From NCBI GenBank assembly GCA_016778985.1, contig JADHOM010000020.1, positions 1 through 36,669 on the forward strand: 36,669 nt of DNA, given 5' to 3'. The translations under genes and the position numbers were made by a program. The notes under the pieces were generated by a model. It worked only from the letters and a program-made list of their open reading frames with translations, was not told where the DNA came from and did not search any database. Numbering within the stretch: position 1 is the first letter of the stretch; each line of letters opens with the position of its first letter. The stretch is from Alphaproteobacteria bacterium (GTDB taxonomy: Bacteria; Pseudomonadota; Alphaproteobacteria; Puniceispirillales; UBA1172). This document shows, in pieces, positions 1 through 24,131 of this stretch.

Positions 1-198
1 CCAATAATCCTCAAGTCTCTGTGTCACTGACTGTGCGGCACGGACAGCACTAGCATATGATTTGGTCTTCAAGCTGAAGGACAATCTATCAGAAGCATAG
101 TGCTTCTTCACATCATAGGGGACACGTCTAGTGTAATAGTAGACCCCATCTCTGTTGGACACATAACGAACATCAGAATTGTACATCACTCTGTACAT
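1..198 (-). CDS. Integrase (tyrosine recombinase type), N-terminal fragment cut by window edge
   Basis: The reverse strand is open from an ATG at 198 to the window edge (66 codons, no stop). A GAGGTG ribosome-binding site lies 6 bases upstream of this ATG; a second in-frame ATG at 186 has no such site. The protein begins with the pattern RYVSNRDGVYYYTRRVP (residues 11-27), followed by a basic stretch and SFSLKTKSYASAVRAA (40-55). This order (short opening, G-V-Y-Y-R-R-x-P, then SLKT and A-x-x-x-A) is that of the N-terminal arm-binding/DUF6538-like region of phage and island tyrosine recombinases. The catalytic R-H-R-Y domain would lie outside the window, so the enzyme class is inferred from the N-terminus and from the position beside a tRNA gene. 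It reads away from tRNA-Arg, as expected for an integrase at the tRNA end of an integrated element. Confidence 0.72.
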   Translation of the reverse strand, partial: MYRVMYNSDVRYVSNRDGVYYYTRRVPYDVKKHYASDRLSFSLKTKSYASAVRAAQSVTQRLEDYW

Positions 199-266
199 CA
201 CCACACCTCGCAGACATTGCACAATGCCTACAAATCAATGTGTTAGCACATGATGTGATGGGGAAA
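199..266. other. Candidate attachment-site/regulatory interval between integrase and tRNA-Arg
   Basis: This short interval between the tRNA 3' end and the integrase start contains two compact inverted repeats: CATTG-CA-CAATG at 215-226 and ATGTG-TTAG-CACAT at 238-251. Such sites next to an integrase can serve as recombinase or excisionase arm sites or as an operator for the integrase gene. The role is inferred from position; only the symmetry is seen directly. Confidence 0.35.
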
Positions 267-343
267 TGGCGCGCCCGGAGAGATTCGAACTCCCGACCTT
301 TTGATTCGTAGTCAAATGCTCTATCCAGCTGAGCTACGGGCGC
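267..343 (-). tRNA. tRNA-Arg (anticodon ACG)
   Basis: The reverse strand folds as a complete cloverleaf of 77 bases including an encoded CCA (267-269). The acceptor stem is GCGCCCG/CGGGCGC with G as discriminator, the D-arm is GCTCAGCTGGATAGAGC, the anticodon stem-loop is TTTGA-CTACGAA-TCAAA, and the T-arm holds GTTCGAATC. The loop gives anticodon ACG, read as ICG for CGN arginine codons after A34 deamination. The gene is intact, so any element inserted at its 3' end restored the tRNA sequence. Confidence 0.95.
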
Positions 344-491: not shown

Positions 492-980
492 ATGAGTAGA
501 TTGCCACCGGAAAAGTCATTTCCTGTATCGTGGGAAGAATTACACCGGACATCAAAAGCGCTAGCTTGGCGATTGCTGGATATGAAGCCATTTAAAGGTA
601 TTGTTGCGGTCACGCGCGGTGGCCTGGTGCCTGCCGCGATTGTTGCAAGAGAGCTGGATTTGCGGCTTATCGAAACGGCTTGTATCGCCTCATATGACGG
701 CAACAGACAAGGTCAGTTGACCATGATTAAATCGCCAAGTGAGGCCAGTGACGGCGATGGCTGGCTCATTGTTGATGATCTTGTGGATACTGGTGAAACA
801 GCAAAAGCCTTGCGCCAGCAGCTGCCGAAAGCCCATTTCGCCACCGCCTATGCGAAACCAGCGGGCCGGCCATTGGTCGATACGTTCGTCACTGAGGTGA
901 GCCAAGATACATGGATTTTCTTCCCTTGGGATATGGAACCGCAACCGATACAGCCTATCGCCGGTCAGCGGCCGCGCTAA
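492..980 (+). CDS. gpt: Xanthine(-guanine) phosphoribosyltransferase
   Basis: Purine salvage enzyme that joins xanthine or guanine to PRPP to give XMP or GMP in the cytosol. The 162 residues compare with about 152 in the E. coli enzyme. The PRPP-binding loop [13 protein letters not shown] spans residues 92-104, and the hood/base-binding C-terminus ends with the WIFFPWDME stretch typical of Gpt. The conserved [11 protein letters not shown] segment (38-48) is also present. The start ATG at 492 is preceded by GAGGAG (478-483) at good spacing. The gene stands alone on this strand and ends tail-to-tail with the sensor kinase, overlapping it by 4 bases. Confidence 0.93.
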
Positions 981-14781: not shown

Positions 14782-16663
14782 GATCGGCTGTCTTCTCATT
14801 ATCATCTGGCAATTGATTTAGTGGCTCATCTAGTGGCTGATCTGGTGGCTGATCTGGTGGCTGATCTGCCAACTCATCTGCGGCGGCATTGGCGGTCACA
14901 TCGCCATCACCATTTTCGGCATCATCAACCATGACCATACCTTTGAGCGGCATGATCTTATGAATTTTAGCACCTGGGAAGGTTTCTAATGCCGTTTGCA
15001 TCATGGGGTCAGCGATAAGTCTATCCTCAAGCGCCTGTTGTTTTTGCTGATCAATTTCATTTAATGTCTCACTACCTGCTTGTGAGGTCACAGAGACAAT
15101 CCAGCGCATCCCTGTCCACTCTGATAAAAGATAGGCAATCTGCCCTGGGGTGCTTTCATCAAGCGGCTTATCTGTCGAAAACTCAAACCGGCCAGCATTG
15201 AGCTGAACTGGTCTGATGCGGGTTTTTAGATAGGCGGCCAGTTTTAATTCACCGTGATCTTCAAAGATTTGTGCCATCTGAGTCATATTCTCGGGCGCTG
15301 GCATCAGATCAGGTGTCGCATTTGCAGAAACGGCGGGGGCGGCAGGGGCGGTGCTAGCTGGCTCATCCTGATCAGCGATGCGAGGGGCCACCAGGTCAGA
15401 TACTGCTGCCTGTTGTTCAGAAGTTGGGGGCGCTGATGTGTCGGCGCTAGATTTTGGTGGCGCCAATTGGTCAGGTGAGATGTCTTTGAGCTTTTTGACC
15501 AGATCACCCGGTGTTGGCATATTGGCGACATGAGCAAGCCGGATCACAACCATATCGGCGGCGGCATGCGGATCAGGGGCAAGATTAACCTCACCATGAC
15601 CTTTGAGCATGATTTGCCATGCTCTAGCCAGCCGCGATAGCGTCATATGGCTTGCTATGTCATGCAGTTCATTCTGTTCGGCTTCGGGTAAGTCTTCGAT
15701 ACTGCCACCAGCCGCAATTCGGCTTGCCATATGGATATAATCTAGCATATCGGCGATCACCATGATCGGCTCAGCGCCACTCTTGATCGCATGATCCAGC
15801 CCTGTCATAGCGGCGTCGGGATTACCTGCAAGTGCCGCTTTGACAATTGTGATTGCATCCATTCGACCGGCCTGCCCAAGCATGGCGGCAACCGCATCAT
15901 CTTCAATCTGGTTGCTGGTCAATGCTGCCGCTTGGTCAAGCAAGGATAGGGCATCTCTGACCGATCCCTCAGCGGCACGGGCGAGACGTTTTAATGCAGT
16001 TTCTGTTATACTGATCTGCTCTTTATCAGCAATCATAGCCAAATGCTTGGCCATCTGATCTGTGCCAACACGTCGTAAATCAAATCTCTGACACCGTGAT
16101 AACACCGTGACAGGAACTTTTCTGATCTCAGTTGTTGCAAAGACAAACTTAACAGATTCTGGCGGTTCTTCCAAGGTTTTGAGCAGAGCGTTAAAAGCGT
16201 TGCGCGACAACATATGAACTTCATCAATAATGTATATTTTATAGCGCGCAGATAGTGGCGCGTAATGCACACCGTCAATAATATCACGAACATCATCAAC
16301 GCCTGTATTACTGGCGGCATCCATTTCCAGCACATCAACATGGCGAGAATTGGCAATATCTGTGCAATGGGTACAGACACCGCAAGGCGTTAATGTCGGC
16401 TGACCTTTGCCATCTGCGCCCACGCAGTTTAAGCCTTTGGCTATGATCCGTGCGGTGGTAGTTTTACCGATACCGCGCAAGCCAGTGAGGATAAAGGCAT
16501 GCGCAAGGCGACCCATAGCAAGCGCGTTGCTAAGCGTTTGCACTAAACTGTCTTGGCCAATCAGCTCATCAACCGTATTTGGCCGGTATTTTCTGGCCAG
16601 CACCCGATATGGTGCGGCCGGCTGGTCTGCTGTGTTTCCTATATTGGGCTGATCTGATGGCAT
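14774..16663 (-). CDS. dnaX: DNA polymerase III subunits gamma and tau
   Basis: Clamp-loader ATPase of the replicative polymerase (629 residues). The AAA+ domain has Walker A GLRGIGKTT (61-69), a four-cysteine zinc module (Cys80, Cys94, Cys97, Cys100), Walker B IYIIDEVHM (143-151) and an SRC motif (LSRCQRF). The collar domain follows, then a proline/alanine-rich linker (about 400-455) and a tau-type C-terminal domain. The last 30 residues contain a Q-P-P-D repeat encoded by a 12-base tandem repeat. No clear A-rich slippery site for gamma production is visible. First gene of dnaX-ybaB-recR. Confidence 0.97.
   Translation of the reverse strand: MPSDQPNIGNTADQPAAPYRVLARKYRPNTVDELIGQDSLVQTLSNALAMGRLAHAFILTGLRGIGKTTTARIIAKGLNCVGADGKGQPTLTPCGVCTHCTDIANSRHVDVLEMDAASNTGVDDVRDIIDGVHYAPLSARYKIYIIDEVHMLSRNAFNALLKTLEEPPESVKFVFATTEIRKVPVTVLSRCQRFDLRRVGTDQMAKHLAMIADKEQISITETALKRLARAAEGSVRDALSLLDQAAALTSNQIEDDAVAAMLGQAGRMDAITIVKAALAGNPDAAMTGLDHAIKSGAEPIMVIADMLDYIHMASRIAAGGSIEDLPEAEQNELHDIASHMTLSRLARAWQIMLKGHGEVNLAPDPHAAADMVVIRLAHVANMPTPGDLVKKLKDISPDQLAPPKSSADTSAPPTSEQQAAVSDLVAPRIADQDEPASTAPAAPAVSANATPDLMPAPENMTQMAQIFEDHGELKLAAYLKTRIRPVQLNAGRFEFSTDKPLDESTPGQIAYLLSEWTGMRWIVSVTSQAGSETLNEIDQQKQQALEDRLIADPMMQTALETFPGAKIHKIMPLKGMVMVDDAENGDGDVTANAAADELADQPPDQPPDQPLDEPLNQLPDDNEKTADHA
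14821..14868. repeat. 12-base tandem repeat in the 3' end of dnaX
   Basis: Four consecutive 12-base copies of GTGGCTGATCTG: the first differs at two positions, the other three are identical. In the dnaX frame they encode an acidic Q-P-P-D/Q-P-L-D/E-P-L-N series near the tau C-terminus. A copy-number change would keep the frame. Confidence 0.9.
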
Positions 16664-22745: not shown

Positions 22746-24131
22746 TTAATCTAAAATGACACGAATATGATTTAACCGTATCCATAATGTAGCCCCTCTT
22801 AGCCCAAGAAGAATCATAAAAGCAAGCCATATCCCGATTAAGCCAAGCCAAATATTCATTACATAGAGTAATGGCAGAAAGACAATAACCGACAAGAGCA
22901 TAGCATTGCGCATATCACGGCCCATTGTTGCGCCAACAAAAACCCCATCCATTTGAAAGGCAATCACCGACACAACAGGCATAATGACGAGAATAGGCAG
23001 GATCTGGTGGCTCCTCTCAACAACCTCAGGGATACTGGTCATGACGTGGATAAAGGCATCTCCGAATAAGGCGAGCAGGATCGCCATGCAGACGGACATA
23101 ATAATCGCCAAATTGGTAGTCTCGCGTAGAGTATGATTAAACATGACCATATTGCGGCGACCAATGGCGCTGCCAGTGAGGGCTTCTGCTGCATGTGCAA
23201 ACCCATCAAGCGGATAGGCAATCGTTGCAAAAATAACAAAACCAATTTGTGATGCTGCCAGCGCGACATCATCAATTGCCGATGCCGCATTAAGAACAAT
23301 CAATTCAGATAAGATAATACAGCTTGTCCGGATAGTAAGATCAAAGCCAAGCCCCAGATAGCGCCGCATGGCGTCAAGGTTCATAATGACTTTAAGCGAT
23401 AGAAAAGATAATGGCGTTATTCGCCTAATGGCAATAATTAGCATTGGCAGAGTGACCAGCAAGCCGCTGTAATGGGCAATGGCGGTGGCCAGTGCAACAC
23501 CCTCAATGCGCATGCCCAACCCATAAACAAGAACAATATTACCAATAATATTGATCGAGTTGACGGTGATAAGCTGGATCACCGTGGCACCAATGCGCTG
23601 AAGCCCAAACATCACCCCCATGATCACCATATTGATGGTAATCGCCGGGGCAGATATGCAGACAATCGTTAAATAGCGTGACATGCCTTCCCTAACCTCA
23701 TCACTCATCGACAGCGTTATGCTGGCCAGATAAATAATCAGTGGGATCAATAAAATGGTGAGCAATCCAAGGATAACAGCAACATAGAGGGCACGCCAGA
23801 AATGGGTTAGCACCATTGCGCCATCATTAGCACCTGCGGCCTGTGCCACAAATCCGGTTGTCGCCATCCGCAGAAAACCAAAAATGGCTAGGATCAAGCT
23901 GAGGATAAAGCTGCCCATTGCGACTGCACCAATATAATGCGGGGAATTTAGATGCCCCATTACTGCCGTATCAACAATCCCAACTAGAGGAATTGAGCTA
24001 TTCGCAATAATCACCGGAACAGCAATTCGCCATGTTTGCTTGCGAATAGCGGCGCGGTCGTTGCCATCAATGCTTTTCAGCACTTGATCAGCTGTCTGCG
24101 CGTCATTTAGATGTGTGTGTTGTTTTGTCAT
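22746..24131 (-). CDS. MATE-family efflux transporter (DinF/NorM-like)
   Basis: Inner-membrane cation-coupled multidrug or metabolite exporter. The 461-residue protein has about twelve membrane segments in two halves; the first half contains IPLVGIVDTAVMGHLNSPHYIGAVA, the family's N-terminal pattern, and the second half has YPLDGFAHAAEALTGSAIGRRN and QMDGVFVGATMGRDMRN. The latter two place it in the DinF branch. Substrate unknown. No DinF-type LexA box was identified. It is transcribed with the aminopeptidase and divergent from the ArnT-like gene. Confidence 0.92.
   Translation of the reverse strand: MTKQHTHLNDAQTADQVLKSIDGNDRAAIRKQTWRIAVPVIIANSSIPLVGIVDTAVMGHLNSPHYIGAVAMGSFILSLILAIFGFLRMATTGFVAQAAGANDGAMVLTHFWRALYVAVILGLLTILLIPLIIYLASITLSMSDEVREGMSRYLTIVCISAPAITINMVIMGVMFGLQRIGATVIQLITVNSINIIGNIVLVYGLGMRIEGVALATAIAHYSGLLVTLPMLIIAIRRITPLSFLSLKVIMNLDAMRRYLGLGFDLTIRTSCIILSELIVLNAASAIDDVALAASQIGFVIFATIAYPLDGFAHAAEALTGSAIGRRNMVMFNHTLRETTNLAIIMSVCMAILLALFGDAFIHVMTSIPEVVERSHQILPILVIMPVVSVIAFQMDGVFVGATMGRDMRNAMLLSVIVFLPLLYVMNIWLGLIGIWLAFMILLGLRGATLWIRLNHIRVILD

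Follow-up and report, generated by a model that had tools for sequence, protein, structure and literature searches.

The window comprises the whole of contig C31 (36,669 bases) from a 2.1-Mb genome assembled in 43 contigs. An intact tRNA-Arg(ACG) gene with an encoded CCA end was located at 267..343 on the minus strand (ARAGORN; Rfam tRNA model, 69.7 bits). Its last 17 bases, TCTCTCCGGGCGCGCCA (267..283, minus strand), consist of the 3' strand of the T-stem, the acceptor strand and the CCA and would form the attL core, as judged from the chains of cores in relatives. A leader, here termed the A arm (199..266, minus strand), runs from the tRNA end to the start codon of an integrase gene (int) and was delimited with the near-identical leader on contig C27 and the element on contig C5. 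Of int itself, the window holds the initial 66 codons (1..198, minus strand), which encode an N-terminal domain matching Pfam DUF6538 (PF20172, E 3.4e-16). DUF6538 is the N-terminal domain in many tRNA-targeting integrases. The distance from the tRNA 3' end to the int ATG is 68 bases and int points away from the tRNA, which confirmed the placement in the preliminary description of an integrase N-terminus about 70 bases from an intact tRNA-Arg and reading away from it. The frame is open over 1..222 on the minus strand (74 codons from a GTG at 222); comparison with relatives makes the ATG at 198 the more probable start. The 66 visible residues could be aligned with a clade of ∼390-aa integrases (23 full-length relatives) and were 57% identical to the C5 copy; the tree of this clade was built from full-length members, without the window fragment. 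As the contig ends at base 1, inside int, the catalytic domain and the cargo lie outside the window. No second copy of TCTCTCCGGGCGCGCCA was present in the 43-contig assembly when up to two mismatches were allowed.

A phosphoribosyltransferase-like gene occupies 492..980 on the plus strand, outside the element, and was recognized from its open reading frame and from matches across the order. These were present in 44 of 61 genomes and most of the loci inspected had tRNA-Arg(ACG) alongside; by this measure, the gene is a conserved chromosomal neighbor of tRNA-Arg(ACG) across the order. The shared locus was occupied by an integrase of the ∼390-aa clade in five genomes (G000, G016, G022, G025 and G037), and tRNA-Arg(ACG) loci of other genomes contained no clade integrase within the stretch seen. 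Judged from this distribution, the locus is a recurrent target of elements of the clade. When the joined flanks of one element were compared with the 61 genomes, matches were obtained to one side or to the tRNA only, and among the occupied and unoccupied tRNA-Arg(ACG) loci of the 61 relatives there was no provable empty site.

Near the right contig end (35659-36669), a tRNA-Thr(CGT) gene is followed by a minus-strand ORF with a GNPSGRPK motif and by a second ORF, which we take to be sulfatase-modifying-factor-like. This region of the window contained no clade integrase and no inverted core.

Related integrases in the same genome and across the order

A search of the genome with positions 1-400 of the window recovered the same int start on C27, where it stands at the contig end, and one with 71% identity on C5. 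The C27 copy adjoins tRNA-Gly(GCC) and the C5 copy adjoins tRNA-Leu(GAG). Because the geometry of tRNA and int recurs at both places, it is not due to chance. The alignment of C31 with C27 showed few differences up to about position 258 and diverged abruptly near the tRNA end, since C27 bears tRNA-Gly(GCC) at that place; the alignment and the different flanking tRNAs together show that near-identical int starts occupy different tRNAs. Both contigs break at the identical base within int, which we infer to be the behavior expected of an assembly repeat.

The int gene on C5 is full-length (386 aa, with DUF6538 and Phage_integrase domains) and lies between the two copies of a perfect 93-bp inverted repeat. 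The first copy starts within the T-stem of tRNA-Leu and extends across the CCA and the leader up to the int start, and the inverted copy sits immediately past the int stop codon. Contig C39 of this genome bears one more element end, whose core is a different one, and C21 bears an integrase remnant. C39 was considered as the missing portion of the C31 element and was rejected, as the two have no sequence in common and their cores differ. Within 1159-2515 of L014 (G000:C3), in the same genome, another integrase (a 409-aa frame) adjoins a different tRNA on the same strand, and no similar inverted repeat flanks this gene.

Matches to the integrase were obtained in 46 of 61 genomes (the genome itself and 60 relatives), with a maximum of 11, reached in a complete SAR116 genome. 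The catalytic residues R, H..R, W and Y were nearly invariant among the full-length relatives, and the C5 copy possesses the catalytic domain. In relatives, the same arrangement of tRNA and int was present at 12-13 tRNA species. Hosts of the clade include SAR116, Roseobacters and others; a second set of records contained SAR116 cluster bacteria, Candidatus Puniceispirillum, alpha proteobacterium BAL199, Ruegeria, Thioclava, Thalassovita and Maritalea. Judged from these relatives, a SAR116-cluster bacterium is the most likely source of the window. In the tree, the short DUF6538 integrases were separated from the long ones as a single clade (node support 0.77). At tRNA-Arg(ACG), the int modules of L221, L222 and L223 were ∼97.7% identical, and their upstream chromosomal flanks just 79-89%, suggesting that these modules spread horizontally of late.

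Mirrored attachment sites in complete elements

The anatomy of integrated elements in relatives was tRNA-core(+) - A - int - A' - core(-) - B - cargo - B' - core(+). Along complete genomes, successive cores alternated in orientation, with (+) within the tRNA, (-) behind int and (+) at the far end, so that the outer cores are direct repeats and an additional inverted core lies between int and the cargo. The far boundary of whole elements was a direct copy of the tRNA 3' end, at a distance of roughly 4-16 kb. The A and A' arms are perfect or near-perfect inverted repeats of 33-103 bp that meet at the core. B and B' form a second pair of perfect or near-perfect inverted repeats, in which the stretch behind core(-) mirrors the stretch before the last core(+). 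Of the 15 elements that could be delimited, 14 had B arms that matched exactly over 98-1131 bp outward from the core, in one of these with an offset of a single base. An inverted repeat flanked int in 35 of the 43 loci examined across the order and in 58 of the 81 integrase genes of the second set (at least 25 bp exact in 55), a set that overlaps in part with the first. The repeat was absent from about a quarter of the loci, in part because the contig ended before it could appear.

The layout recurred within the genome of the window, among complete genomes and in the isolate Ruegeria sp. TM1040, whose sequence is finished. The Ruegeria element resides on a megaplasmid at tRNA-Phe, has direct cores at both ends and carries a type I restriction system as cargo. 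Its A arms measure 85 bp and its B arms, with the core counted in, 1148 bp. Each inverted B arm contains a BRO-family gene (15478-16053 and 25822-26397 of L254, the megaplasmid locus), and the two encoded proteins are identical.

The membership of the window integrase in this family rests on sequence similarity, and its A arm would be expected to recur in inverted orientation behind int. The left edge had been described beforehand as the tRNA end of an integrated element; that assignment stood with respect to the attL and the tyrosine recombinase family, and it was incomplete in that the second, inverted att site and the two sets of inverted repeats lay beyond the sequence it drew on.

The cargo of these elements included a fatty-acid hydroxylase, a macro-domain protein, Mza defence proteins and a protein matching ZacB. 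Near-identical int modules were paired with different cargo, and complete genomes contained multi-element arrays. In one joined stretch at tRNA-Arg (L091 with L106-L108, G016:C1 from 1652000), three more direct tRNA-Arg cores were present at positions 22831, 30323 and 41748, each with an identical ATCGAACT flank in front. These extra cores look like accreted cargo units, apparently without an integrase of their own.

Probable maintenance of the repeats and proposed mechanism

The arms were compared between related elements. Columns that had changed in both arms outnumbered those changed in one by 527 to 74 over all comparisons, and by 116 to 21 when restricted to 14 non-overlapping pairs in which each locus was used once. 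By these counts, the paired arms evolve in concert. As controls, 19 longer DUF6538 integrases (429-623 aa) from other Pseudomonadota were analyzed in regions of about 8 kb. These proteins have the same N-terminal domain and are often tRNA-adjacent, but they fall on separate tree branches, and none of the 19 regions contained an inverted repeat or an inverted core; a direct core was present in three. In the clade itself, the direction of int could be decided in 59 cases, and in 58 of these int pointed away from the tRNA. At the single locus with int pointing toward the tRNA (L233, G029:C5, 1-9000), the int module holds an additional gene and the repeat has shrunk to 20 bp; this locus is possibly a natural inversion. 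Taken together, the concerted arms, the repeat-less controls and the constant int direction suggest that the repeat is maintained.

We consider it probable (roughly 0.8) that the left edge of the window is the attL of an element integrated at the 3' end of tRNA-Arg(ACG) by a ∼390-aa DUF6538 recombinase, and that the element behaves as follows. The intact tRNAs and the direct repeats strongly imply conventional integration and excision via the outer cores. Given the mirrored anatomy, recombination of the outer cores would yield a circle with two complete attP sites (B'-core-A) that face opposite ways. The integrated form would retain one complete attP, inverted, between int and the cargo. The recombinase would insert the circle at the tRNA 3' end via the attP beside the int start, thereby rebuilding the tRNA, and excision would proceed by attL x attR recombination. 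Exchange or copying between the two inverted sites may hold the arms identical. The retained attP could serve as a landing site for more elements and for cargo exchange, a role for the mirrored site that fits the arrays and the pairing of near-identical int modules with different cargo. From the constant int direction, just one site or strand would seem to be productive. This asymmetry might arise from strand-biased integration or from sequence beyond the repeat that makes the two sites unequal.

One competing reading is that of an ordinary tRNA-integrated island, where the inverted repeats would be incidental and without a role. It would account for the conventional ends, with an intact tRNA at attL and a direct 3'-end copy at attR, and the longer DUF6538 integrases often adjoin tRNAs without such repeats. 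However, in many genera the repeats begin at the core on either side and are nearly always perfect, and the paired arms change together; we therefore regard this reading as unlikely. Still less likely is an amplification like that of the yeast 2-micron plasmid (FLP/FRT), in which two unique regions are parted by inverted repeats bearing the recombinase site. Recombination between the inverted sites would flip a replicating element and convert theta replication into double rolling-circle replication. The layout is shared with that plasmid and one element carries a Prim-Pol with an AAA ATPase, but this was the only replication module among the cargo examined, most of which had no replication gene. 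No close relative of the integrase was found in phage records or on small plasmids; the extrachromosomal search returned one megaplasmid match and one close IMG/VR contig with an 84-bp repeat. Frequent flipping should also yield both int directions, yet 58 of 59 point away from the tRNA, and free flipping is thus unsupported. The elements further differ from the 2-micron plasmid in being integrated at a tRNA, with a nearly constant int direction.

A possible, though doubtful, alternative is that the mirrored sites fold a single strand into a double-stranded attP, with single-stranded integration as in integron cassettes and CTX phage. Perfect arms on either side of the core would give a continuous duplex, and a strand-specific substrate would be expected to give a constant int direction. 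The SE elements of Vibrio, which are likewise small tyrosine-recombinase elements, are reported to circularize in a strand-biased manner (PMC9345347), and such a bias is one possible explanation of the one-way int direction. SE elements differ in that their terminal repeats are short and imperfect (19 bp), that they have two integrases and that the description consulted mentions no tRNA target (PMC9345347). Against folding, no single-stranded form, relaxase or rolling-circle initiator was found in the cargo examined, and the B arms, at up to 1131 bp, far exceed the needs of a hairpin site. Just as tentatively, the mirrored sites may belong to a distinct integration route. Pairing between the inverted repeats, within a single strand or in a strand-biased intermediate, would form the attP; a phage-type tyrosine recombinase would thereby insert the element into tRNA genes with a constant direction, and a complete attP would stay in the chromosome for the next element. 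With respect to the int direction, a folded strand or strand-biased reaction and unequal binding beyond the repeat explain the data equally well. Lastly, the structure could be an artefact of assembly or amplification, with hairpin chimeras by contig ends; many of the loci were taken from single-cell or metagenome assemblies, and on C5 the repeat is close to a contig end. This was ruled out by the occurrence of the same structure in single-contig genomes and in the finished Ruegeria TM1040 megaplasmid, which leaves the artefact a negligible probability.

Comparison with known elements and significance

The elements with mirrored att sites resemble Islander-type tRNA islands in the intact tRNA, the adjacent outward-pointing int and the direct 3'-end copy at the far end. 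They differ from such islands in the extra inverted core with full arms between int and the cargo, and in that both modules are ringed by perfect inverted repeats. Tycheposons, known from Prochlorococcus and reported in Methylophilaceae too, are also marine, tRNA-targeting elements with a tyrosine recombinase at the tRNA end and variable cargo; the secondary description consulted (PMC10872708) mentions no inverted att sites, and tycheposons are set apart to that extent. No account of this layout, with mirrored att sites within long perfect inverted repeats, was found in the open-access literature searched.

The elements are frequent in abundant marine bacteria, where they occupy a dozen or more tRNA species, with cargo that includes genes for defence, transport and metabolism. 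As a rule an element has one attP, and the presence here of a second, inverted one within long perfect repeats is a departure. This raises the testable questions of how the direction is chosen, how the arms are kept identical, how near-identical integrases come to reside at different tRNAs and how the arrays grow.
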